Part shown: positions 5,161-33,316 of the stretch, piece after piece
Position numbering within the stretch: the first letter of the stretch is position 1
How the letters are laid out: the number at the start of each line of letters is the position of its first letter
IMG/VR virus record: IMGVR_UViG_3300008114_000144
Location: 1-33,316 of that record
Length of the DNA stretch: 33,316 nucleotides
Origin: a virus
Reading direction: 5' to 3' (one strand)
Notes under the pieces: generated by a model
Told to the model about the DNA's origin: nothing
What the model saw: only the letters and a program-made list of their open reading frames with translations
The model's database searches: none
Position numbers and translations under genes: made by a program

Positions 5161-5432
5161 TCTAACTTTTGTAGTCTAATCATCAAATCACCAGTACCCT
5201 TTATTAATCTGTGATAAACTCCTTTAGGTATAAATATTTCACCTTCTATATTAATTGGTAATTTATCATCTAGTTGAAATTTCCAATCAGTTTTCTCAAT
5301 AGATTCAATTATTCTATCTTCAAAATCACGATGCCAGTATAAATCTCCAGAATCAACATCTTGATAGAATGTTCTGATATAATTATTATCAGATATTTTT
5401 TGTTCTTTGAATGGTAACATCATATTTTCCAA
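5157..5432 (-). CDS. Small cupin-like phage protein
   Basis: This 91-residue protein has the layout of a single short cupin barrel: SGDLYWHRDFEDR near residues 28-40, WKFQLDDKLPI in the middle, and IFIPKGVYHRLIKGTGDL near the end. Similar small proteins with a paired WHRD...EDR and IPKG-x-YHR pattern occur in T4-like phages, and I know of no established function. The two histidine-containing motifs could bind a metal or small ligand. Its first 13 bases lie inside the end of the upstream gene (5420-5836), so the two are probably translationally coupled. At the other end it overlaps the convergent gp47-like stop. The start at 5432 is the first ATG of the frame. Confidence 0.7.
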   Translation of the reverse strand: MENMMLPFKEQKISDNNYIRTFYQDVDSGDLYWHRDFEDRIIESIEKTDWKFQLDDKLPINIEGEIFIPKGVYHRLIKGTGDLMIRLQKLD

Positions 5433-5836
5433 AAGTGTATGTGAATTTCTCCTAGGTATTCTGAAATATCTGTATTATATAAAGATATTAACTCATCTAA
5501 ATCTAAGTCAATTATTCTAACTCCTCTATCAATCGTTGTGTGATACTTCCAACCCAGGTTGGTCATGTAACCAATACACTCTTTCACTATATTGACAATT
5601 TCCTCAATATGATTTTTGTTTGTAGACACACTGACATTAACATAGTCTTTAAATCCACTTTCTACCCTTGTGTTCCTAAACCAATCCTCGTGAGGTTCAT
5701 CTAAAAATTTACTCCTTTCTATTATAGAGTAATTAATTTGAATATCTTTAAGATCAATTAATATAAATTCTAAATCTTCCTTTACTTCATCGGAATCTGA
5801 ATTTTCGAATAATTTATATTTAGTAATATATTTCAT
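5420..5836 (-). CDS. Unknown protein with a capsid-targeting-like N terminus
   Basis: This 138-residue protein is not recognised. It begins MKYITKYKLFE, which resembles the ten-residue capsid-targeting peptide of the T4 internal protein IPIII (MKTYQEFIAE) and contains L9-F10-E11, a match to the (I/L)-x-E cleavage rule of the T4 prohead protease. If so, the mature protein would start at N12 and travel inside the capsid. The body is acidic and mixed alpha/beta and ends in GEIHIHFWKI. It is co-transcribed with the cupin-like gene that overlaps its 3' end. The packaging idea is inference. Confidence 0.7.
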   Translation of the reverse strand: MKYITKYKLFENSDSDEVKEDLEFILIDLKDIQINYSIIERSKFLDEPHEDWFRNTRVESGFKDYVNVSVSTNKNHIEEIVNIVKECIGYMTNLGWKYHTTIDRGVRIIDLDLDELISLYNTDISEYLGEIHIHFWKI

Positions 5837-22584: not shown

Positions 22585-23622
22585 ATGAAAACAATTTTTC
22601 TTGAATATATCTGGTTAGACGGTAATTACCCACAAAGACTAAGATCGAAGACTAAGATCGTAGAAGTTAAAAATGAAGATAAATTGAAATTATCAAATTG
22701 GGGTTTTGATGGATCATCTACTTCACAAGCTGAGACTTCTAAATCAGAAATGGTTCTTGTTCCTGTAAATAAGTTTAAAGATCCATTCAGGGAAAATGGC
22801 TACTTCGTAATGTGTGAAGTGTATAATACAGATATGACTCCTCACTCTACTAACAAGCGATACACTCTTTCTGAGACTGTAGAAGAGTCTGATGAAGAAA
22901 CACTCTATTGTTTTGAGCAAGAGTACATAATTTATGATAATAAAACCGGAAAACCACTTGGATGGCCTAAAGATGGGTTTCCAAGACCACAAGGTGACTA
23001 TTATTGTGGAGTTGGTGGTAATAATGTGTCTGGTAGAAAATTTGTCGAAAAACACGCTGAGTATTGTATAAACGCAGGTTTGAATTTTACTGGAATTAAT
23101 GCTGAGGTAATGCTTGGACAATGGGAATATCAAATCGGTCCGGTGAAAGCACTTGATGGTTCGGATCAACTTTGGATTTCAAGATATATTTTAGAAAGAT
23201 TATCAGAAGAATTTGATTATTCTATTGAGTTTCACCCTAAACCTTATCAAGGAAACGACTGGAATGGAAGTGGAATGCATGTCAACTTTTCAACATCAGA
23301 TATGAGAAAAAACTTCAAAGAAAAGAAAAAACTAATTGTTGAAGCTTGTGAGAAACTAGGTAAATCAGTAGAGAACCATATTAAAGTTTATGGAGTTGGA
23401 AATGAACTTAGACTAACTGGTACTAATGAAACATGCTCTATAAATCAATTTAAATATGGAATTGGTGATAGAACCGCGTCAATTAGAATTCCTTTCTCAG
23501 TTACTGATGAAACAACTCCGGGATATCTAGAAGACAGAAGACCAGCATCAAACGCAAATCCATATGAAATTTGTGATGTTATGATAAAAACAATCTGTGT
23601 TGGTTCAGAAGTTGGAATTTAA
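22585..23622 (+). CDS. glnA: Glutamine synthetase, type II (GSII)
   Basis: This 345-residue protein is a full-length eukaryotic-type (GSII) glutamine synthetase: MKTIFLEYIWLDG, WGFDGSSTSQAE, EQEYIIYD (metal-binding glutamate), GWPKDGFPRPQGDYYCGVG, NAEVMLGQWEYQIGP, DWNGSGMHVNFST, DRTASIRIP and YLEDRRPASNANPYEI. The enzyme makes glutamine from glutamate, ammonia and ATP. It has the short GSII length and lacks the adenylylation site of type I enzymes. The expected metal- and substrate-binding motifs are all there. It lies in the late block between head-completion and portal genes, with its own TATATA box upstream and a strong terminator downstream. An auxiliary metabolic role in nitrogen or nucleotide supply is likely. 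Confidence 0.95.
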   Translation: MKTIFLEYIWLDGNYPQRLRSKTKIVEVKNEDKLKLSNWGFDGSSTSQAETSKSEMVLVPVNKFKDPFRENGYFVMCEVYNTDMTPHSTNKRYTLSETVEESDEETLYCFEQEYIIYDNKTGKPLGWPKDGFPRPQGDYYCGVGGNNVSGRKFVEKHAEYCINAGLNFTGINAEVMLGQWEYQIGPVKALDGSDQLWISRYILERLSEEFDYSIEFHPKPYQGNDWNGSGMHVNFSTSDMRKNFKEKKKLIVEACEKLGKSVENHIKVYGVGNELRLTGTNETCSINQFKYGIGDRTASIRIPFSVTDETTPGYLEDRRPASNANPYEICDVMIKTICVGSEVGI

Positions 23623-23724: not shown

Positions 23725-25404
23725 ATGGCATCAACATATAATCCTCTAAATCAAGGCAGTAATGTACAATACCTTAATTCAGCTATAGAAAATAGAGGAC
23801 TCTTTAGTAGAATACTTAGAAATCTTTCATCATGGGGTATGAACTATGACGATATGATTATGAGAAATCAAGTAGGTATCGGTATAAACGAAGACCCATA
23901 TTCTCAACAAGGTAATTCTATGTATGACTTTTTTAGTAAAAGAGCTGTAGCATCAGTTCTTAACAGGAAGTCAATACCTTATCTAGATAGATCATATTCT
24001 GATAAAAGAAGAATTTTAAGAGAGTACTCGATCAAAGACGAAATAAGAGATTTTGTTTCTACAGTTTGTGATGAGGCGGTAATCTATTCAGAAAAAGATT
24101 TTTGTAGTCCTAAAAACTTATCTACCGACCTTTCACAAGATATCAGGGATAAGTATCAAGAATCTTTCGAAAAAATTTATAATAGATATGGATTTTCAGA
24201 TTCTGTTACTGCTTGGAATTTGATGAAAGATTTTTTGATTGATGGTTATGTTGCTATGGAAATTGTATGGGATGATAAAAATAAAAATATTGTACACTTT
24301 AATCGTCTAAGACCAGAAACTTTAGTTCCAGCATTTGAGCCTTCTATAGGAAATTTGTGGATTCAATATCCAGAAGATCCTCAACTTAGAAGAATTTTCT
24401 TAGACTCACAAATTATTTTTATCTCATATACAACTCAAAATGACTATTCAGAAACATCTTATGTTGAAGGTTTGATTAAACCGTATAATCAACTTAAAAT
24501 TATTGAGCAGACTAAAATTATGTTTAACATAATTAACGCAACTGTTTATCAAAAATTTACAATTCCTGTAAAAGGTCTTTCAAGACAGAGAGCTGAGGAA
24601 CAAATTGGCCAACTTATAAACGATTATTCTGAAGAGGTTGAATGGGATGATACACTAGGTACTCTTCAAATTAACGGAACAAAACATCTTCCTTATAATA
24701 AACAAATTTGGTTTCCAGAAGGTGACGCTGGTACTCCTAATATGGAACTAGTTTCACCTCAGGGCCACAATCTTAATGAGGACGATATTCTAAAATGGTT
24801 TTTTAATATTTTAAAAAGGGCTTCAAAAATACCAGTGCAAAGATTTGAAGGCGACAATGGTGGTGGTAATGTCTTTACTGATGCTGCTGAGATGACAAGA
24901 GATGAGGCAAAGTTCAGTAATTTTGTTAATAGATTAAGAGCTAACTTTAAAGAATTAATCGTTAAGCCTCTTAAATTACAAATGCTCGTGGAATTTCCCG
25001 AATTAAAAAATGATGAAATAGTACTTAATCAAATTGATATTGACTTTGTATCTAATCAGCTTTTTGAAGAATGGAAGAAACTTGGAAACATGGCAAAAAA
25101 GATAGAGATACTTGGTAGTTATACAGGTATACAAAAGGCAGATGGTACTCCTTATTTTCACATTGAATATTTGATTGACCATGTCCTAAGGCTATCTGCA
25201 GAAGAAAAAGAAGAAAATAGAAGATATTGGATTAAAGATTCAGCGGGAGCTGGTTCTTCTGATGCTACTCCAAGTGAGATGCCTGAGGGCACAGAGACAC
25301 CGACTGAAACTCCTACCGAAACACCGACTGAAACTCCAGAGACTCCAGAGGCAGGTGGAGAAGAGGGTGGTGAGGGAGAGGCAGGTGGAGAATTTGAATT
25401 TTAA
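23725..25404 (+). CDS. 20: Portal protein, T4 gp20-like
   Basis: This 559-residue protein matches the T4 gp20 family in length (T4: 524) and in pattern: REYSIKDEIRDFVSTVCDEAV, DFLIDGYVAMEIVWDDKNKN, a central FNRLRPETLVPAFEP, then QIWFPEGDAGTPNMELVSPQ and ILKWFFNILKRASKIPVQRF, where gp20 has its FRKLYRALNVP-type segment. The dodecameric portal sits at the head vertex through which DNA is packaged and the tail attaches. The last 45 residues are low-complexity, with repeated PTET motifs then Gly/Glu-rich sequence, and should be disordered. The order portal, protease-scaffold, capsid follows T4 20-21-22-23. A minus-strand endonuclease fragment lies immediately after. Confidence 0.92.
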   Translation: MASTYNPLNQGSNVQYLNSAIENRGLFSRILRNLSSWGMNYDDMIMRNQVGIGINEDPYSQQGNSMYDFFSKRAVASVLNRKSIPYLDRSYSDKRRILREYSIKDEIRDFVSTVCDEAVIYSEKDFCSPKNLSTDLSQDIRDKYQESFEKIYNRYGFSDSVTAWNLMKDFLIDGYVAMEIVWDDKNKNIVHFNRLRPETLVPAFEPSIGNLWIQYPEDPQLRRIFLDSQIIFISYTTQNDYSETSYVEGLIKPYNQLKIIEQTKIMFNIINATVYQKFTIPVKGLSRQRAEEQIGQLINDYSEEVEWDDTLGTLQINGTKHLPYNKQIWFPEGDAGTPNMELVSPQGHNLNEDDILKWFFNILKRASKIPVQRFEGDNGGGNVFTDAAEMTRDEAKFSNFVNRLRANFKELIVKPLKLQMLVEFPELKNDEIVLNQIDIDFVSNQLFEEWKKLGNMAKKIEILGSYTGIQKADGTPYFHIEYLIDHVLRLSAEEKEENRRYWIKDSAGAGSSDATPSEMPEGTETPTETPTETPTETPETPEAGGEEGGEGEAGGEFEF

Positions 25405-25936: not shown

Positions 25937-28159
25937 ATGAAATCAGTTCTTATTGTTGAGAATTCTATGAATTCTCTGAATATCTCAGAGAGTAACAATA
26001 AGGAAGATCAATTTGTTTTAGGTGGTATTTTTACAGAATTCGATGTAAAAAATCGAAATGAAAGAGTATATACTGCTGACAGATTTCTTCCTTGCCTTCA
26101 AGAGTTAAATGAGAGAATAGAATCTATGGGTGTTGTATATGGTGAGTTTGATCACCCAGATGTATTTGATACTTCACTTTCAAGAGCTTCTCACATTGTA
26201 ACTAAGGCACATTATGTTAAAGAAAATAACAGAGTAGAAGGTGAGATTAGATTACTTAATACTCATTGGGGAAAAGAAGCTAAGGCTCTAGTTGGAGATA
26301 ACTGTCCAATATTCGTATCATCAAGAGCTGCTGGAATAACTGAGTCAGACGGTACAGTAACACTTAAAAAATTATTTACTTACGATATTGTTGCTGATCC
26401 TGGATTCGCATCTGCAAAAATGAATGTTAAGATACTTAATGAATCTTTAAATTATTCAAATAACGCTAACTTTAGGATATATGAAATGTCCGATGAGTCA
26501 AAAATAAACGATCTATTTAATATGAACACTAACGATTTGGTGACAAAACAACAATTGACTGACTACTCTCAGTATTTGGTCAATGAGTTAGCTTCTACTA
26601 AGAAAGAAGTTCGTAACGCTATCAAGAAGGGTAATTTAAATCCTAAAAAATTGGAGCAGTTACTTGAATACTATGAGAATTTGAATGAGACTAATTCTCA
26701 AATTTTAAAATATTTAGATTATTTGGCTGAGAAAGTACAAATAGTTGTAAATGAAAACACAGATTTGAAAAACACTGCTGACAGATTGATTAAACATAGT
26801 GATTACTTGGCTGAAAATTTAGAAAAAGCAATCAACTATACTGAGTATGTTGCAGAAAATCTTGATAAGAATATTGAGTATTCTGAATATATCGCAGAAA
26901 ATTTGGATAAGAACATTTCTTATGCTGAATATATCGCTGAGAATTTAGATAAGAATATTTCTTATGCTGAATATTTGGCTGAAAACTTAGACAAAAACAT
27001 CGCATATTCAGAATATCTTGCAGAAAATTTGGACAAGAACATCGCATATTCAGAGTATATCGCTGAGAATTTAGATAAGAATATTTCTTATGCTGAATAT
27101 TTGGCAGAGAATTTAGATAATTCTATCGCATACTCAGAGTATCTTGCTGAGCATGTGGAAGGTAATATCGCTTATTCTGAATATATCGCAGAGAACTTAG
27201 ATGACAACATTGCTTATTCAGACTATATCGCAGAAAATCTTGACAAATCAATTTCTTATCAGAGTTTGATTGTTGAGAAATTAAATGGTGGTAAATTGTT
27301 CGAAAGTAACGAAGAAGAAGAAAGACTTCCACTTTTGAATGTTGTTGGTATTAATTCATATGAAGAGGAAGAAGAGGAAGAAGGTGATAAGTATGGTGAA
27401 GGTGAAAACTGGAACGACTCAGCTGAATCTCCAACTTCTGAAGAAACACCACAAGTAGGTGAATCAAATGATACCGAAGAACATCTAGTAGTTGCAGAAT
27501 CTAATGAAGCTGAAGAGACTCAATCAGAAGCTGAAGAAACTCAGTCTGAAACTGAAACTCAATCAGAATCTGAAGAAACTCAGTCTGAAGCTGAAGAAAC
27601 TACTGGTGAGACAGAAGAAAAAAGATACGAAGGTAATTCTGATTCAGAATTATCACAATCTATTGATAAATTGATCGAAGAAGCTAAAAAACGTAAAGCT
27701 ACTGAAACATCCGATCTACATTTCCTAACGTTTTTAACAAAATCTCAGGTTGATAGCTACTATTCTTTGACAAACGAAGAACAAGACGCTGTTAAACTTT
27801 ACATAAGCGAAAAAAGTTTCTTTACACAAGTTGATGTGTTGAGATTAATATCTGAGGCTTTAACTGCTAAAAACGAATCTCTTGAAGAAAGAGTAATCAG
27901 ATTGATGCCTGAAAACATCAAGCCAATCTGGAACCAATTAAATGAGAATGCTAGAAAATCTATCTTATCACAAGCTAGATTATACCCATCTGAAGTAATG
28001 GCAACTGATTCACAAGTTGATCACTTCTGGATGACTAGAAATCTCAAGAAAAACGAATCTGTAACTAAGAAATTAGTTTCACATGAAAGCATGATTCAAG
28101 AAGATAGAATATCTGAAAAAGAATTGGGAGCAATCATGGAGAGATTCAAAAACTTATAA
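25937..28159 (+). CDS. 21-22: Prohead protease fused to scaffold (T4 gp21 + gp22-like)
   Basis: This 740-residue protein joins two T4 functions. Residues about 25-170 are a prohead core protease: FTEFDVKNRNERVYTADRF, GEFDHPD (H73), RASHIVTKAHYV, FVSSRAAG (S128/S129) and FTYDIVADPGF. The rest is helical and acidic, like a scaffold. It has 11 tandem 14-residue repeats (26795-27256) of the type YSEYIAENLDKNIS, then a Glu/Ser/Thr-rich linker, and a C-terminal domain (about 595-740) with TKSQVDSYYSLTNEEQDAV and LMPENIKPIWNQLNENARKS. (I/L)-x-E motifs, the T4 gp21 cleavage rule, occur at I16-S-E18 and L167-N-E169, on either side of the protease. The capsid gene follows 39 nt later. Confidence 0.88.
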   Translation: MKSVLIVENSMNSLNISESNNKEDQFVLGGIFTEFDVKNRNERVYTADRFLPCLQELNERIESMGVVYGEFDHPDVFDTSLSRASHIVTKAHYVKENNRVEGEIRLLNTHWGKEAKALVGDNCPIFVSSRAAGITESDGTVTLKKLFTYDIVADPGFASAKMNVKILNESLNYSNNANFRIYEMSDESKINDLFNMNTNDLVTKQQLTDYSQYLVNELASTKKEVRNAIKKGNLNPKKLEQLLEYYENLNETNSQILKYLDYLAEKVQIVVNENTDLKNTADRLIKHSDYLAENLEKAINYTEYVAENLDKNIEYSEYIAENLDKNISYAEYIAENLDKNISYAEYLAENLDKNIAYSEYLAENLDKNIAYSEYIAENLDKNISYAEYLAENLDNSIAYSEYLAEHVEGNIAYSEYIAENLDDNIAYSDYIAENLDKSISYQSLIVEKLNGGKLFESNEEEERLPLLNVVGINSYEEEEEEEGDKYGEGENWNDSAESPTSEETPQVGESNDTEEHLVVAESNEAEETQSEAEETQSETETQSESEETQSEAEETTGETEEKRYEGNSDSELSQSIDKLIEEAKKRKATETSDLHFLTFLTKSQVDSYYSLTNEEQDAVKLYISEKSFFTQVDVLRLISEALTAKNESLEERVIRLMPENIKPIWNQLNENARKSILSQARLYPSEVMATDSQVDHFWMTRNLKKNESVTKKLVSHESMIQEDRISEKELGAIMERFKNL
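26795..27256 (+). repeat. Eleven tandem 42-bp (14-residue) coding repeats in the scaffold
   Basis: Eleven in-frame units of exactly 42 bp encode the 14-residue unit Y-S/A-E-Y-I/L-A-E-N-L-D-K-N-I-S/A, with a few substitutions in the first and last copies. Fourteen residues equal two heptads, so the array should form a long regular coiled-coil rod. Third-position differences between units suggest protein-level selection with ongoing unit duplication. Confidence 0.95.
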
Positions 28160-28198: not shown

Positions 28199-29938
28199 AT
28201 GTCACACATTAGAATAGACAAACAAAAAGCAGTTAAGAAGTGGGCTCCTGTATTGGAGAACATGGGTGTTACTGGTGAAAGAGTTGACTGGATGGCAGAA
28301 TATGCTGAGTTTCACTCTATTAACGAAAACGCTTACGCTAATGCTACTACTGCTGGTATGGGTCAAGTAATTGCTCCAACTCCAAATGCACTTCCTGGTA
28401 ACCTTAACTTAGGTAACACAATTGGTACAAACGGTGTAGGATCTGGAGATCTTGGTCAAAACCTTTTACCAGTAGCTATGAAAATCGCAGCTCAGACTAT
28501 CGGTCTTGACCTAGTTGCTGTAAAACCATCACCTGGTCCAAAAATCGATCTTCTTTATATTGACTTCCAATATGATGATGTAAACACAGAAAGTGGTATT
28601 AATTCAAGACCACAGGTTTTCAAACTTACAGGTGCTACAAATTTATCAACTGCTATAGGAACTGTTTCTACTTATGTAACTACTACTCAGGGTTATAAAT
28701 TAACATCTGGTGGTATTCAGGGAGGTAGAGTATTTGCAACAATTGCAACCGCTTCTACGGTATCTGGAGCACCATCAGCTGGAGCTTTTTATATCGCATC
28801 AACAGAACCAACAGTTAAAGCAGGTATAGTTGAATTCTTGGGATTCTCAAGAGTTGATGGATATCCGATGTTTAAGACCTATAGACAAGTTAATGCATTT
28901 GGTCCAGGTGGATATTCTTCACTTACTAACTACTCTTTTGAAGCTCAGTATAACACATTCAATGCAACTGGGTCAATGACCGCTCAAATTACGACTGTTG
29001 GTACTCAGCCACTTACTGGCACAGTTACTATTGACTTGGTATCTGCACTCGAAGATCATCTTCCAGGATTTTCAGCTAACTGGACATCTAATATTGCATC
29101 AGGTGATTATCCAATGAGTCGTCAGACTGATGATAATACATATTCAGGTATCATCGGTCCTAAGGTATCTTCTAAGTCAATTCAAGTAGGTACAGTTGAA
29201 GTTTCAACTGCACTTAGAAGAACTGAAATTGAAGACATCAAGGCTAACACTGGTATGGACATCGTTCAGAAGATGGAATCAATTCTTGTTAATGAATTGT
29301 CTCAGACAATTTCAAGACAAATTGTTAATAAGATTTTTGAACTTGGTGACAGAAACAGAAATACATCGCCAGTACAAACTGGATTAGGTGTTACTGTAGT
29401 CGGAACAACTGCATCTTCTATATTCGACTTGAATACAGTTTATGCTCAATCTGCAGTTGTTGGTGGTGAAACTACACACGCTGTTCAACGTAAGTTGATC
29501 ACTAAGATGGTTCATGCTTCTAACTACATTGCAACAGAAGGACGTGTTGGTCCAGCTCAATTCGCTGTAACAAACGGAGGTCTTGCTGCATCACTTATGG
29601 ATATCGCTGGATATACAATTAACCCAGTTAAATCTAAAATCACTGGTCAAGGTCAATTGTACCCTGTTGGTCAAATTGGTGATATTTCTATCTATGTTGA
29701 TCCTTATATGAAGTATAATGATAACAGAATTGTTGTTGGTAGAAAGAACAACCCTGATCAACCAGGTCTTATCTTCATTCCTTACTTGATGGCTCAGTCT
29801 ATCAGTGTAATTTCTGAAGCTACTTTTGCACCAAGAATGTTACTACGTTCTAGATATGCAATCGCAGATGTTGGTTTCTTCCCAGAGAAGCAATATATGA
29901 CTATTGTTGTAACTGATAACGCACAGTTGTTGAACTAA
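28199..29938 (+). CDS. 23: Major capsid protein, T4 gp23-like
   Basis: This 579-residue protein follows the protease-scaffold gene as T4 gene 23 follows 22. The N terminus KKWAPVLENMGVTGERVDWM is a T4-type propeptide, ending in F-H-S-I41-N-E43, a match to the (I/L)-x-E cleavage rule, so the mature protein probably starts at N44. The HK97-like body has SGIIGPKVSSKSIQVGTVEV, ALRRTEIEDIKANTGMD, MESILVNELSQTISRQIVNKI and the C-terminal FIPYLMAQSISVISEATFAP and LRSRYAIADVGFFPEKQYMT, in the order seen in gp23. It is Ala/Gly/Thr-rich, with the most biased codon use in the window, fitting very high expression. The leader is A-rich with no TATATA in the usual place. A strong terminator follows. Confidence 0.93.
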   Translation: MSHIRIDKQKAVKKWAPVLENMGVTGERVDWMAEYAEFHSINENAYANATTAGMGQVIAPTPNALPGNLNLGNTIGTNGVGSGDLGQNLLPVAMKIAAQTIGLDLVAVKPSPGPKIDLLYIDFQYDDVNTESGINSRPQVFKLTGATNLSTAIGTVSTYVTTTQGYKLTSGGIQGGRVFATIATASTVSGAPSAGAFYIASTEPTVKAGIVEFLGFSRVDGYPMFKTYRQVNAFGPGGYSSLTNYSFEAQYNTFNATGSMTAQITTVGTQPLTGTVTIDLVSALEDHLPGFSANWTSNIASGDYPMSRQTDDNTYSGIIGPKVSSKSIQVGTVEVSTALRRTEIEDIKANTGMDIVQKMESILVNELSQTISRQIVNKIFELGDRNRNTSPVQTGLGVTVVGTTASSIFDLNTVYAQSAVVGGETTHAVQRKLITKMVHASNYIATEGRVGPAQFAVTNGGLAASLMDIAGYTINPVKSKITGQGQLYPVGQIGDISIYVDPYMKYNDNRIVVGRKNNPDQPGLIFIPYLMAQSISVISEATFAPRMLLRSRYAIADVGFFPEKQYMTIVVTDNAQLLN

Positions 29939-29956: not shown

Positions 29957-29990
29957 GAAAACCCCTTCGAAAGAAGGGGTTTTTTATTTT
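29957..29990 (+). terminator. Intrinsic terminator after the major capsid gene
   Basis: ACCCCTTC-GAAA-GAAGGGGT forms an 8-bp stem closed by a GAAA tetraloop, with A and T runs on either side. Confidence 0.95.
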
Positions 29991-30036
29991 TATATCTTTT
30001 TCATTCGAAGTTTGATAATCTAGTTTTAGTCCATAA

Positions 30037-30042
30037 TATATA
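30037..30042 (+). promoter_or_regulatory. TATATA late promoter candidate, 4 nt before the start
   Basis: AATATATA-CTTC-ATG places the box 4 nt from the start of the NFACT-R gene, which is the leaderless class. Confidence 0.6.
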
Positions 30043-30046
30043 CTTC

Positions 30047-30436
30047 ATGATAAAAAATTATCAACTTTTCTTAGAATCAAAAAAAGATAAGTTTCCTAAT
30101 ATTAAAACCGTCAAAGTAGGTGATTTCACAGTTTTGATTGGTAAAGATTCTAAATCAAATGACTATTTAACAACTATTAAGTCACAAGACGAAGATATTT
30201 GGTTTCATGCAAAAGGCGTTCCTGGAAGTCATGTTGTGATTAAAAGTAGAGAAAGTTTGCCAACTCCAGAAATTATTGAAGAAGTTGCTAGAATTGCTGC
30301 GAAAAACTCAAAGTCTACTGGTAAGACAAAAGTAGTTTATTGCAAGATTAAGTTTGTAAATAAAACCAGTGATATGAAAGAAGGTCAAGTTTCGGTAGAT
30401 TACAACAATGCAGATGAAATCGAAGTTGAAATTTAA
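30047..30436 (+). CDS. Stand-alone NFACT-R domain protein (RqcH C-terminal type)
   Basis: This 129-residue protein consists almost only of an NFACT-R (DUF814) domain: VLIGKDSKSNDYLTT, then the hallmark DEDIWFHAKGVPGSHVVIK, EEVARIAAKNSKSTGKTKV and a final EGQVSVDYNNADEIEV strand. In RqcH/Rqc2/NEMF this domain is the C-terminal part of a ribosome quality-control factor that works on stalled 50S or 60S subunits. The tRNA-binding NFACT-N and HhH parts are absent. Single-domain NFACT-R proteins exist (eukaryotic CCDC25) and bind nucleic acid. The first ten residues, MIKNYQLFLE, resemble the T4 capsid-targeting peptide MKTYQEFIAE, so the protein might be packaged and injected. It heads a cluster with a peptidase and a tmRNA-like RNA. 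Confidence 0.87.
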   Translation: MIKNYQLFLESKKDKFPNIKTVKVGDFTVLIGKDSKSNDYLTTIKSQDEDIWFHAKGVPGSHVVIKSRESLPTPEIIEEVARIAAKNSKSTGKTKVVYCKIKFVNKTSDMKEGQVSVDYNNADEIEVEI

Positions 30437-30463: not shown

Positions 30464-31804
30464 ATGTCTTTTGAAAGTGTTACATTCTTATATACAGATA
30501 CTTTACACGAAATTATAGATAATATTTCCGGACCAGTTGCTGAGGCACTGTTAAAGGCACAAGGTGATAGATTTGTAAAGAATCCTTTTAAAATTGAAGT
30601 GGTCGATGTTTCTAAAACACATAGTAGATTTTGGGTGACTTTCAAAGATCATAAACAAAATATGAAGATTAAGGCATTTATAAATTCAATTTTGCCTAAT
30701 TCATTCACCGATCATCAGATTTGGGAATTTATTCAAGAATACAATAAACTAGCACTTGGTAAAGAAACTCAAGCAGAGACTAAGGTCACTTATAATAAAA
30801 TTGAACCAAGAGCTTTTAGATTCGAACCAAAAGATATAAGAAATACATTTATCTCACTAGTAACACAGACTTATCCACACGGTCATGAAGAAGAAGTTAT
30901 GAAGTTTATGCCTCAAGATCTTAGTAAAGACGAGTTTGGCAATTACTACAAAATAATAGGTAAATCTCAGACTATGTTTACTTCACATCTTGACACTGCT
31001 GACAGAACTAAAAGTTATGTTAACTTGGTGAGTGTTGAAAGAGATGGAGATGAGATAATTATGACTGACGGAACTAGTATTTTAGGAGCTGATGATAAAG
31101 CAGGTGTTACTGTTATGCTCTACATGATGGCTCATAACATACCGGGTATTTATTACTTTTTTATAGGTGAAGAAAGAGGTGGTATAGGTTCTTATAAATT
31201 GGCAGCTGCTTTTGATAAATACACTCACTTAAAAGATGTTAAAAGATGTGTTTCGTTTGATAGAAGAAACTACTTTTCAGTGATCACTAAACAATCTTAT
31301 AGACAATCCTGTTCAGACGAATTTGCGCAAGCTTTAGCTGACGAATTAAATAAGTCAGGACTTAGTTTATCACTCGACCCAACTGGTATTTATACTGATT
31401 CGGCTTCATTTATTGATGATATACCAGAATGTACAAATGTATCTGTTGGTTATTTCAGTGAACACACAACAAAAGAGTGTCAAAATATTTCATACCTTGA
31501 AAGATTAGCAAAAGCCTGTCTATCTGCAAATTGGGAAGAACTTCCAACTGTTAAAAAAGTAGGCTTTGATGAAGAAATTTTAAGGAAGTATAAAGGATTC
31601 TTAGCTGAATTAAAGGCAAATGTATTTAATTTAGAAGTTAGAATGGTCAATGATTTTGGAGATGCTATAATTAAAATAGAAATAGAACCAGATTTAGAAT
31701 TGGTTTTTGAAGAGCTAAAAATAATAAGCAGACTACTTACAAAACATAAAATGGACCCAGATGTCACATTTGATAATCAATATATTAAAATAAATTTAAA
31801 GTAA
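30464..31804 (+). CDS. Di-zinc metallopeptidase, M20/M28 (clan MH) type
   Basis: This 446-residue protein has a complete set of zinc ligands and catalytic residues of clan MH aminopeptidases: S-H175-L-D177-T, G-A-D210-D-K-A-G, G-E236-E237-R-G, S-F-D266-R-R and S-E-H334-T-T-K-E. The order and the GADDKAG and HLDTAD wording are closest to peptidase T-type and M42/M28 enzymes, which trim short peptides. About 160 N-terminal residues form an extra domain of unknown type, and the C-terminal 90 residues are another helical/strand part. There is no signal peptide, so it would act in the cytoplasm or the virion. Its stop and the next start share one base (TAATG), so the following gene is coupled. The substrate is unknown. 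Confidence 0.85.
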   Translation: MSFESVTFLYTDTLHEIIDNISGPVAEALLKAQGDRFVKNPFKIEVVDVSKTHSRFWVTFKDHKQNMKIKAFINSILPNSFTDHQIWEFIQEYNKLALGKETQAETKVTYNKIEPRAFRFEPKDIRNTFISLVTQTYPHGHEEEVMKFMPQDLSKDEFGNYYKIIGKSQTMFTSHLDTADRTKSYVNLVSVERDGDEIIMTDGTSILGADDKAGVTVMLYMMAHNIPGIYYFFIGEERGGIGSYKLAAAFDKYTHLKDVKRCVSFDRRNYFSVITKQSYRQSCSDEFAQALADELNKSGLSLSLDPTGIYTDSASFIDDIPECTNVSVGYFSEHTTKECQNISYLERLAKACLSANWEELPTVKKVGFDEEILRKYKGFLAELKANVFNLEVRMVNDFGDAIIKIEIEPDLELVFEELKIISRLLTKHKMDPDVTFDNQYIKINLK

Positions 31805-32253
31805 TGAAGTTTAATACAATTAAATATAGTAAAATATCAATATCTGAGGCGTCTAAAGAACCTTGGGAAGATGATTATGCGGATTCTTATGAAGATAGAT
31901 ATGATAAATATGGAACTTATGGTCGAGATTTTTATGATGATGCACCAGAAGAAATAGAAGAGGATGATCAGAAAGATAATATCTCCTACGAAATAAGAAA
32001 AATTTTGTCTTTATATGGTATAGTAGGCGAAGTTGAATTTGAAGAAAAATATGGTCTCTCTATAAGAATATACTTAAAGAAAAGAGAGAAAATGAGTAAT
32101 ATTATTAAAATAATGGATACTGTTATTAATAAAGTAAAAAAACAAATATTACCACAGTATGAATCTGAAGTTGAGCTATATGAGACTACAAAAGGTCAGC
32201 CGGTCCTAGAATTTGATTTTTACCTTTTATCTGATAGCGAATCACCATTTTAG
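31804..32253 (+). CDS. Unknown acidic protein with a capsid-targeting-like N terminus
   Basis: This 149-residue protein is not recognised. It begins MKFNTIKYSKISISE (I13-S-E15 fits the prohead protease cleavage rule), followed by a very acidic, tyrosine-rich stretch (EDDYADSYEDRYDKYG and DFYDDAPEEIEEDDQ). The second half is a small alpha/beta domain: EIRKILSLYGIVGEVEFEEK, then LSIRIYLKKREKMSNIIKIM and VLEFDFYLLSD. It is translationally coupled to the peptidase through TAATG. The acidic linker and N-terminal peptide suggest a packaged or DNA-mimic-like protein, but this is inference. Confidence 0.75.
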   Translation: MKFNTIKYSKISISEASKEPWEDDYADSYEDRYDKYGTYGRDFYDDAPEEIEEDDQKDNISYEIRKILSLYGIVGEVEFEEKYGLSIRIYLKKREKMSNIIKIMDTVINKVKKQILPQYESEVELYETTKGQPVLEFDFYLLSDSESPF

Positions 32254-32597: not shown

Positions 32598-33316
32598 TTA
32601 ATATATCTTAATTATTTTATCTGACTTGTTGTATATTGAATTTACTAATACAGTTAACCACTTTTCTTTATCTTTTCGATACAAATCGTCACTTATTCGG
32701 ACTATTCTCCAGTCGTTACCTATTACCCATTCTTCTAATAATCTATCTTTGGCTTGTTTTTCTTCTAATTGTCCGTATATGTCTTTGAAGTGCCAAATTC
32801 CGTCGTATTCTACTATCACTTTAAGATCATTTGAATAAATATCTCTTGTCAAAATTGTCTCTTTATATTTAAATCCACCTCCTGATGTCCATTTATGTAT
32901 TTTATAATTTTCTTTCAGATAATTTTTAATTTCTTCTTCGCCTTTTGATGTGAACCTTTTGTTTCTATTGGTATTGTTTCTTATTATTTTATTTGCATAT
33001 TCTTCATTTTTCCACAGATTTTTACTAGAATCAGATATTTTCTTTTTTGTCTCAATTGAAGATCTTGATTTAGAACAAGAGTCAGAGCAAAAAAATCTAT
33101 TTTTTCTTTTTCTAAATTTACTACTGACTTCGTTTATTTTAAATTCCTTACCACACGTATTGCACGAAACATCGTGTTCTACAACTAATCTGTTTTTCTC
33201 ATAATATTTCTTTTTTGCCTCTGATATTTTATTACCTCCTTTATCTCCATTTGTGGTGTTTTTATCACACCATCTTACATGATTCGCATATATAGAGTGT
33301 ATACCTTCTATTTCTT
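32598..33316 (-). CDS. Partial Vsr-like (EDxHD) endonuclease, 5' end beyond the window
   Basis: The minus frame is open from the right edge to the stop at 32598, giving at least 238 residues, and it enters from outside the window. A shorter start (TTG 32852) would miss conserved parts. It includes a zinc site (CNTCGKEF...FCSDSCSK) near its middle and the nuclease core: EEEIKNYLKENY, then TRDIYSNDLKVIVEYDGIWH and VIGNDWRIVRISDDL. The D-x(16)-H spacing and YDGIWH match the Vsr-type core of the two full endonucleases, although it lacks their C-terminal GNAT-like domain and ends soon after the core. It lies just downstream of the tmRNA-like RNA, on the other strand, a typical position for a selfish gene. 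Confidence 0.75.
   Translation of the reverse strand, partial: EIEGIHSIYANHVRWCDKNTTNGDKGGNKISEAKKKYYEKNRLVVEHDVSCNTCGKEFKINEVSSKFRKRKNRFFCSDSCSKSRSSIETKKKISDSSKNLWKNEEYANKIIRNNTNRNKRFTSKGEEEIKNYLKENYKIHKWTSGGGFKYKETILTRDIYSNDLKVIVEYDGIWHFKDIYGQLEEKQAKDRLLEEWVIGNDWRIVRISDDLYRKDKEKWLTVLVNSIYNKSDKIIKIY

Follow-up and report, generated by a model that had tools for sequence, protein, structure and literature searches.

A single-domain NFACT-R protein behind a capsid-targeting-like leader in the head module of huge phages

Introduction

In RqcH/Rqc2/NEMF, the proteins of ribosome-associated quality control, the NFACT-R domain shares one chain with NFACT-N, HhH, and coiled-coil parts. NFACT-N is reported to have a role in the selection of tRNA-Ala by RqcH (PMC8373112), and NFACT-R is placed near the A-site finger of the 50S subunit, where it is poorly resolved (PMC8012679). 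Other, free-standing NFACT-R (DUF814) proteins, such as CCDC25, have a single NFACT-R domain as their main part. In CCDC25, the domain is followed by a C-terminal coiled coil. Virus-encoded NFACT/DUF814 genes have also been reported from algal viruses, namely, prasinoviruses and coccolithoviruses (PMC11467894, PMC5371807).

A second point of comparison is provided by the internal head proteins IPI, IPII, and IPIII of phage T4, in which a leader with an aromatic pair and a closing Glu precedes a small basic mature protein and a gp21-type protease is at hand. The 10 N-terminal residues of IPIII are reported to suffice for packaging, with targeting via residues 4 and 7 and processing via residues 8 and 10 (PMC9026906). 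The protease of the giant phage SPN3US likewise is described as cutting after A-x-E, with Ser preferred next (PMC10052503). T4 Ip1-3 are described as injected inhibitors of type IV restriction enzymes of the host, and the signal sequence had served to find many ip genes (PMC12373910).

Here we analyze a window of 33,316 bases, an IMG/VR virus record, in which an NFACT-R gene lies among T4-like head genes (Table 1). Neither the NFACT-R domain nor its free-standing state is new; what appears to be new is that it occurs in the head module of a phage and follows a leader resembling capsid-targeting sequences, a combination for which we found no description in the literature searched. That search, with subscription papers outside its scope, yielded no description of a phage NFACT-R protein, and NFACT is absent from the text of an overview of 224 jumbo phages (PMC7824862) and of the Jug phage preprint (PMC12363816).

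Table 1. Features of the window and of leader-bearing proteins from related records (positions without a prefix are those of the window)
Feature	Position	Strand	Evidence
Second leader-bearing protein, MKYITKYKLFENS...	5420..5836	-	Motif census; no Pfam match at E 0.1
Portal protein, gp20-like	23725..25404	+	phrog_213, E 1.4e-56
Prohead protease, gp21-like	25937..28159	+	phrog_207, E 1.6e-26; Peptidase_S77 below cut-off
Major capsid protein gp23	28199..29938	+	Pfam Gp23, E 6.5e-27; phrog_138
Terminator-like hairpin and T-run between gp23 and NFACT-R gene	29958..29990	+	-22.7 kcal/mol, z -6.0
AATATATA box just 5' of NFACT-R start	30035..30042	+	
Single-domain NFACT-R protein, 129 aa	30047..30436	+	ORF; PF05670, E 2.4e-16; fold Z 19.5 to RqcH
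Leader MIKNYQLFLE, predicted to target the capsid and to be cut by a gp21-type protease after Glu10	30047..30076	+	Conservation; model pLDDT
NFACT-R_1 domain (residues 23-117)	30113..30397	+	Pfam profile
Peptidase T-like (M20-type) protein	30464..31804	+	phrog_4191, E 3.7e-66; PepT-like, E 7e-10, below curated cut-off
Small acidic protein (p149, 149 aa)	31804..32253	+	71/76 loci
T4-type RNA ligase and CCA/poly(A)-type nucleotidyltransferase	L210:20485-21747 and L211:16201-17373		Pfam and leader
SMODS-associated NUDIX	L208:40824-41435	-	E 4e-30; domain match from residue 16, right behind leader
2H phosphoesterase and RNase T-type exonuclease	L203:48257-49573 (LR745206 448257-449573)	-	E 3e-8 and 2.6e-7

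Results and Discussion

A free-standing NFACT-R domain

The 129-aa protein scores 60.7 bits against PF05670 (NFACT-R_1; cut-off, 29.8), the sole Pfam family that it matches, and the match covers profile positions 7 to 110 of 112, so that the domain is near-complete; no PHROG family matches the protein. When a profile built from four phage homologues was compared with the PDB, Bacillus subtilis RqcH (E 2.3e-22) and CCDC25 (1.8e-11) were recovered. An AlphaFold model based on 26 rows from the window and IMG/VR has a mean pLDDT of 89.1 and is well folded beyond residue 12, with residues 1 to 12 below 50. Its best structural matches are all NFACT-R domains: RqcH (8s1u_H; rmsd 1.2 over 107 residues), Streptococcus suis FBPS (Z 19.0), CCDC25 (7eoe_A; Z 16.3, rmsd 1.5), NEMF (Z 15.1), and a chain of the yeast RQC complex (Z 14.9). 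The first other fold follows, after further RqcH rows, at a Z score of only 3.4. Hence, the identification offered by the first-pass annotation, which had named this ORF a single-domain NFACT-R protein, holds both in the profile search and in the predicted structure, which resembles NFACT-R folds and no different fold.

That annotation had further described the RqcH/NEMF signature as intact and the other RqcH parts as missing, and both statements are borne out. The phage domain is 40% identical to B. subtilis RqcH over 107 aligned residues, and residues at which the two agree, among them N38, D50, W52, H54, G60, S61, and H62, several of which lie in the DEDIWFHAKGVPGSHVV stretch (residues 48 to 64), are invariant in 24 of 24 rows. 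NFACT-R alone was matched; NFACT_N (PF05833) was found neither in the window nor in any of five related phage records, some of which are fragments, and in the AlphaFold model nothing follows the final strand of the domain, leaving no C-terminal coiled coil. Thus, in contrast to RqcH/Rqc2/NEMF, with which it shares fold and signature motif, the phage protein is devoid of NFACT-N, HhH, and coiled coil and instead has a predicted removable leader and a location in a phage head module. The mature protein has a pI of about 8.6 to 9.7, several of the rows behind this range being trimmed imprecisely.

The free-standing condition is not unique to phages, being seen also in CCDC25, two bacterial genomes, algal viruses, and viral models. 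However, CCDC25 chains are longer than the domain, and the phage rows form a separate clade. The two bacterial single-domain proteins (127 and 128 aa) have no such leader, unlike the phage form, and the published algal-virus versions, unlike the phage family, belong to viruses of eukaryotes. To our knowledge, neither a leader nor a head-operon context is on record for the latter. Six viral models in BFVD, of 105 to 171 aa and with the organism not given, share the NFACT-R fold.

Distribution and origin

The closest relatives of the window protein are encoded by LR745206 (634,780 bases; 60.5% identity) and LR756502 (642,428 bases; 57.0%), which are probably Mahaphage-clade genomes, and its family is one of huge phages of the Mahaphage type. 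With a profile, 74 loci encoding the protein were recovered from IMG/VR; a scan with a broader pattern, for which the best 80 of 101 relatives were considered, returned 61 contigs already in the first list and 19 additional loci. All 19 encode the family, with gp23 at 18, gp21 at 17, the peptidase at 18, and p149 at 15, some of them stopping at the contig end. The survey of phage genomes that the first-pass annotation had suggested thus finds the single-domain form at no fewer than 95 loci besides the window (74, two, and 19). Many loci are near-copies: 76 entries (74 loci, L001, and the window) correspond to 52 distinct proteins. Five records (LR745206, LR756502, and G001 to G003) contain exactly one NFACT-R match each. 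The gene is under purifying selection, with a dN/dS of about 0.035 to 0.21 in 15 of 16 tested pairs, the remaining pair being without a usable dS.

In a tree of 83 rows and 120 columns, whose deep forks are weak, all 24 rows from phages group in a single clade (99/94) that lies outside the Bacteroidota RqcH clade (97/86). We therefore rejected a truncated Bacteroidota host RqcH as the source: the phage form is, as judged from sequence, a family of one phage clade and not a recent truncation. Among the cellular rows, the one nearest to the phage clade is a free-standing protein of genome G237, which joins it with 88/80 on a very long branch. Eleven of 13 relative rows (Listeria, Enterococcus, Helicobacter, and two labeled "Bacteriophage sp.") were left out, and most of these look like stretches of host RqcH in phage-labeled records.

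On the cellular side, PF05670 is matched in 221 of 296 Bacteroidota genomes, so that the RqcH pathway would commonly be present if the host belongs to the Bacteroidota. The matches listed for this phylum lie, with three exceptions, in frames of about 420 to 660 codons, the size of RqcH; the three are one frame at a contig edge and the two single-domain proteins mentioned above. A first scan of cellular contigs gave no match, probably because its patterns were phage specific. A second scan, judged by the best 80 of its 590 relatives, gave mostly Bacillota and nearly always RqcH-sized frames. Three short frames were rejected as free-standing versions: those of G005 and G006 adjoin a long frame that looks RqcH-N-terminal by eye, and that of G068 sits at the contig start.

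Genomic context and expression

The neighborhood was compared across 76 loci (L001, L002, and L012 to L085), in which gp23 is matched in 74, gp21 in 70, the peptidase T-like protein in 74, and p149 in 71; the portal protein is matched in 14, as the flank usually ends before it. In 67 loci, gp23 is the immediate upstream neighbor of the NFACT-R gene, and in 74, the peptidase is its immediate downstream neighbor, the two arrangements being combined in 65, whereas the ip genes of T4 lie away from gp23. In four loci (L024, L028, L055, and L074), about 0.8 to 0.9 kb separates gp23 from the NFACT-R gene, and in another four (L075, L076, L077, and L080), gp23 is not nearby and the peptidase and p149 still follow. 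Hence, in the most divergent loci, these two genes stay with NFACT-R where gp23 does not.

The sequence ATATATA occurs within 45 bases upstream of the NFACT-R gene in 36 of 42 distinct upstream stretches. In the window, like boxes precede the genes for the portal protein, gp21, and the peptidase and not that for gp23, and we propose that the AATATATA box may serve as a late-promoter-like signal. In LR745206, a TATATA box stands before 20 of 51 ORFs bearing the leader described below, versus 107 of 710 others; Shine-Dalgarno-like sequences are rare there, preceding 1 of the 51 and 26 of the 710. Based on the hairpin after gp23, the upstream ATATATA boxes, and the position among head genes, the NFACT-R gene is likely to be expressed late together with the latter.

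Two further genes of the window may be recorded here. Directly upstream of the portal gene lies one for a GlnII-type glutamine synthetase (22585-23622, plus strand; E 7.5e-120, below the equivalog cut-off), and an ORF on the minus strand (32598-33314) that runs off the window gives weak matches, below the cut-offs, to DUF559 and MTES_1575, a restriction-type nuclease.

A capsid-targeting-like leader

Across the NFACT-R family, the first 8 to 13 residues constitute a leader. Among the 76 proteins parsed (those of the 74 IMG/VR loci, the window, and L001), 73 have a leader closing in Glu that is followed by S, G, A, or K. There are 39 distinct strings of leader plus next residue, 36 of which fit the pattern aromatic-x-x-aromatic-x(0-2)-Glu and 38 of which have S, G, or A after the closing Glu; the pattern also fits 10 of 11 distinct leaders from the 19 further loci. 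Glu10 is invariant in all 26 aligned rows. In the T4 record, IPII and IPIII start with MKTYQEFIAE and IPI starts with MKTFKEFTST, to be compared with MIKNYQLFLE in the window. Taken with the gp21 homologue found in 70 of 76 loci, these features correspond to those of T4-type internal proteins, except that the cargo is a cellular translation-related domain. The gp21-like protease is presumably the processor of the leader. The first-pass annotation had read virion delivery into this N terminus, and at the level of sequence the leader pattern strongly supports such delivery; we consider it quite probable that the protein is packaged in the head.

Variations are seen at the start of the gene. In eight loci (L002, L032, L033, L047, L048, L057, L058, and L084), the NFACT-R frame is open upstream, reaching about 237 to 268 codons. 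In all of these but L002, the leader was counted from an ATG inside the longer frame; in L002 (7677-8366), ATT, preceded by AAGGAG, takes the place of the ATG of the others. The short form may be made in these loci from an internal start or by cutting of a fusion at Glu-Gly/Ser. The three proteins without a parsed leader (L071 to L073) have no near start codon; there, the NFACT-R domain ends a 278-codon frame, and an INE-S junction is kept before KNKFPD.

The leader in other proteins

We used the motif M-[KRI]-x(1,4)-[FYW]-x-x-[FY]-x(0,2)-E for a census of uncurated ORFs, taken as the longest nonoverlapping ATG frames of at least 70 codons. In the first 250 kb of LR745206, it matches 16 of 302 ORFs, versus 0.85 ± 0.92 in shuffled N termini, and none of 1197 internal methionines. 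The motif had been fixed after a looser list from the same 250 kb (27 of 302 ORFs, versus 12.0 ± 3.1 in shuffles); a held-out test, which answers this post hoc choice only in part, its 350 kb coming from the same genome, gave 35 of 459 ORFs, versus 1.50 ± 1.16 and a maximum of 5 across 1000 shuffles. The held-out part yields 5 matches among 1625 internal methionines; 80 cellular loci yield 4 among 2809 and none among their 584 ORFs. In 43 kb of T4, the motif picks exactly IPII and IPIII among 50 ORFs, and IPI escapes it. Two of the 29 ORFs of the window match, as do 51 of 761 in 600 kb of LR745206, NFACT-R included. The leader pattern thereby gives a candidate injected protein set for the largest known phages that can be listed from sequence alone, turning part of their unknown takeover program into a testable short list. 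The leader pattern also occurs in 24 of 47 distinct homologues of p149, the copy in the window not being among them.

A Pfam scan of 29 of the 51 leader ORFs of LR745206, chosen mostly among the longer ones, left 25 without a confident family. The four with a family above the cut-off are all RNA- or nucleotide-processing proteins: a T4-type RNA ligase (E 8.3e-21), a poly(A) polymerase/CCA-adding head domain (E 9.8e-30), the SMODS-associated NUDIX protein, and the 2H phosphoesterase-exonuclease. The last gives a match below the cut-off to the anti-CBASS protein Acb1, and its leader makes it a candidate injected antidefense enzyme. The ligase and nucleotidyltransferase families are found above the cut-off in four of 10 records searched, the four largest, and the leader is present on all four copies of each. 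The ligase leaders read MKLFKYIEFINE-N, MKKLHRYNSFIKE-S, MKLFRYKEFLRE-S, and MKLFRYKEFIKE-G, the last (L220) beginning at the third in-frame ATG; those of the nucleotidyltransferases read MILKKYKMFLE-S, MIITKYAKFLE-S, MKIKKYKSFLE-S, and MKLKRYNQFLE-S. NCBIfam names concur (RnlA family; CCA or PcnB type), all below the curated cut-offs. The RNA ligase of T4 itself is not among the known internal head proteins. For jumbo phages, RNA ligases have been discussed, together with end-restoring nucleotidyltransferases, as answers to tRNA-cleaving, ribosome-jamming defenses (PMC7824862).

Functional prediction and alternatives

Taking these observations together, we propose that the NFACT-R protein might be packaged in the head, cleaved by gp21, and injected to act on the host ribosome or tRNA, a reading for which we see about as much chance of being right as of being wrong. 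Serving as a capsid-targeting sequence, the first 10 residues would bring the protein into the core of the prohead, where a gp21-type protease would cut after Glu10, leaving a compact basic domain of 119 residues amid the packaged DNA, to be ejected into the host along with it. There, the domain would most likely bind at the site of the RqcH NFACT-R, i.e., on 50S subunits or stalled peptidyl-tRNA ribosomes near the A-site finger, and keep translation usable for the phage when host defense cleaves tRNAs. It might do so by preventing host RqcH from adding tails to stalled chains and clearing them away; alternatively, it might mark stalled complexes for co-delivered repair enzymes. Three points lead us to prefer this target: the phage protein retains the RqcH signature, the NFACT-R domain of RqcH bound to the 50S subunit is located close to the A-site finger, and the other leader proteins that could be named with confidence are tRNA-repair or nucleotide-handling enzymes. 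In the absence of NFACT-N, tRNA-Ala selection as in RqcH is not expected, and alanine tailing by the phage protein itself is therefore improbable; rather, it would compete, shield, or recruit. The suggestion of the first-pass annotation that such a domain modulates or blocks host RqcH on stalled 50S subunits is thus plausible on sequence grounds.

The main rival to a ribosomal target is DNA binding inside the head: the protein would be packaged, but its job would lie in the head or on the entering DNA, as a basic nucleic-acid-binding internal protein with no ribosomal role that condenses or shields phage DNA or aids prohead assembly. The basic mature protein suits this idea, as do the gene's usual place beside gp23 and the box that it shares with portal, gp21, and peptidase genes, though not with gp23; further, CCDC25, with the same fold, has been solved with DNA according to structure titles, indicating that this fold also binds DNA, and T4 IPIII mutants are reported to affect head assembly (PMC9026906). 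We nevertheless hold it to be rather unlikely, since the RqcH-shared residues are kept beyond the needs of general basicity and all four leader proteins identified with confidence are enzymes acting on RNA or nucleotides.

A different view would deny the leader any part in packaging and make the product a late cytoplasmic protein, for instance, one rescuing ribosomes stalled on capsid protein synthesis. The gene, which neighbors head genes, does have a TATATA box of its own and is preceded by a terminator-like hairpin; many translation factors are reported to be encoded by huge phages (PMC7162821), and 600 kb of LR745206 contain 59 tRNA genes. Against this stand the match of the leader to the functionally mapped T4 signal (an aromatic pair at spacing 3 and a closing Glu), its presence on many unrelated proteins of the same phage, and the Glu followed by S, G, or A, which fits a gp21-type cut site and may be compared with the cleavage site reported for SPN3US (PMC10052503), so that we deem a purely cytoplasmic role decidedly unlikely. 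That only one RqcH domain is present could also mean a relic, a drifting fragment of RqcH caught from a host. This is extremely improbable given the 95 further loci with near-constant gene order, the low dN/dS, and the position of the clade outside Bacteroidota RqcH; the invariance of the RqcH-shared residues, i.e., conservation, already refutes it.

If an injected, ribosome-directed NFACT-R protein is indeed what these phages carry, then they interfere with bacterial ribosome-associated quality control by means of a virion-loaded protein. We know of no phage factor directed against this pathway, and our literature search showed none. The isolated domain would then also offer a way to learn the binding partner of NFACT-R, which is open in RqcH (PMC8012679). 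A broader and more tentative possibility, which rests on the four identified leader proteins, is that NFACT-R, the RNA ligase, the CCA-type enzyme, and the 2H phosphoesterase in Mahaphage heads form an injected translation-rescue kit. Even before phage genes are expressed, such a kit might repair ribosomes jammed by tRNA-cleaving defenses or shelter them from the quality control of the host, with NFACT-R finding the stalled large subunit.

Other translation-related genes

No S4-domain (RqcP-like) protein was detected in LR745206 or LR756502, the only match in the four records overall being a doubtful frame of 265 residues, and no tmRNA was reported in the 600 kb of LR745206. Both genomes encode RF-1-domain proteins with a GGQ motif (L229 and L228, respectively) in frames of 174 to 178 codons without an early Met, which by eye are possibly the second part of a release factor. 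Of the tRNA genes of LR745206, 56 lie in three of the pieces examined (L203, L208, and L209).
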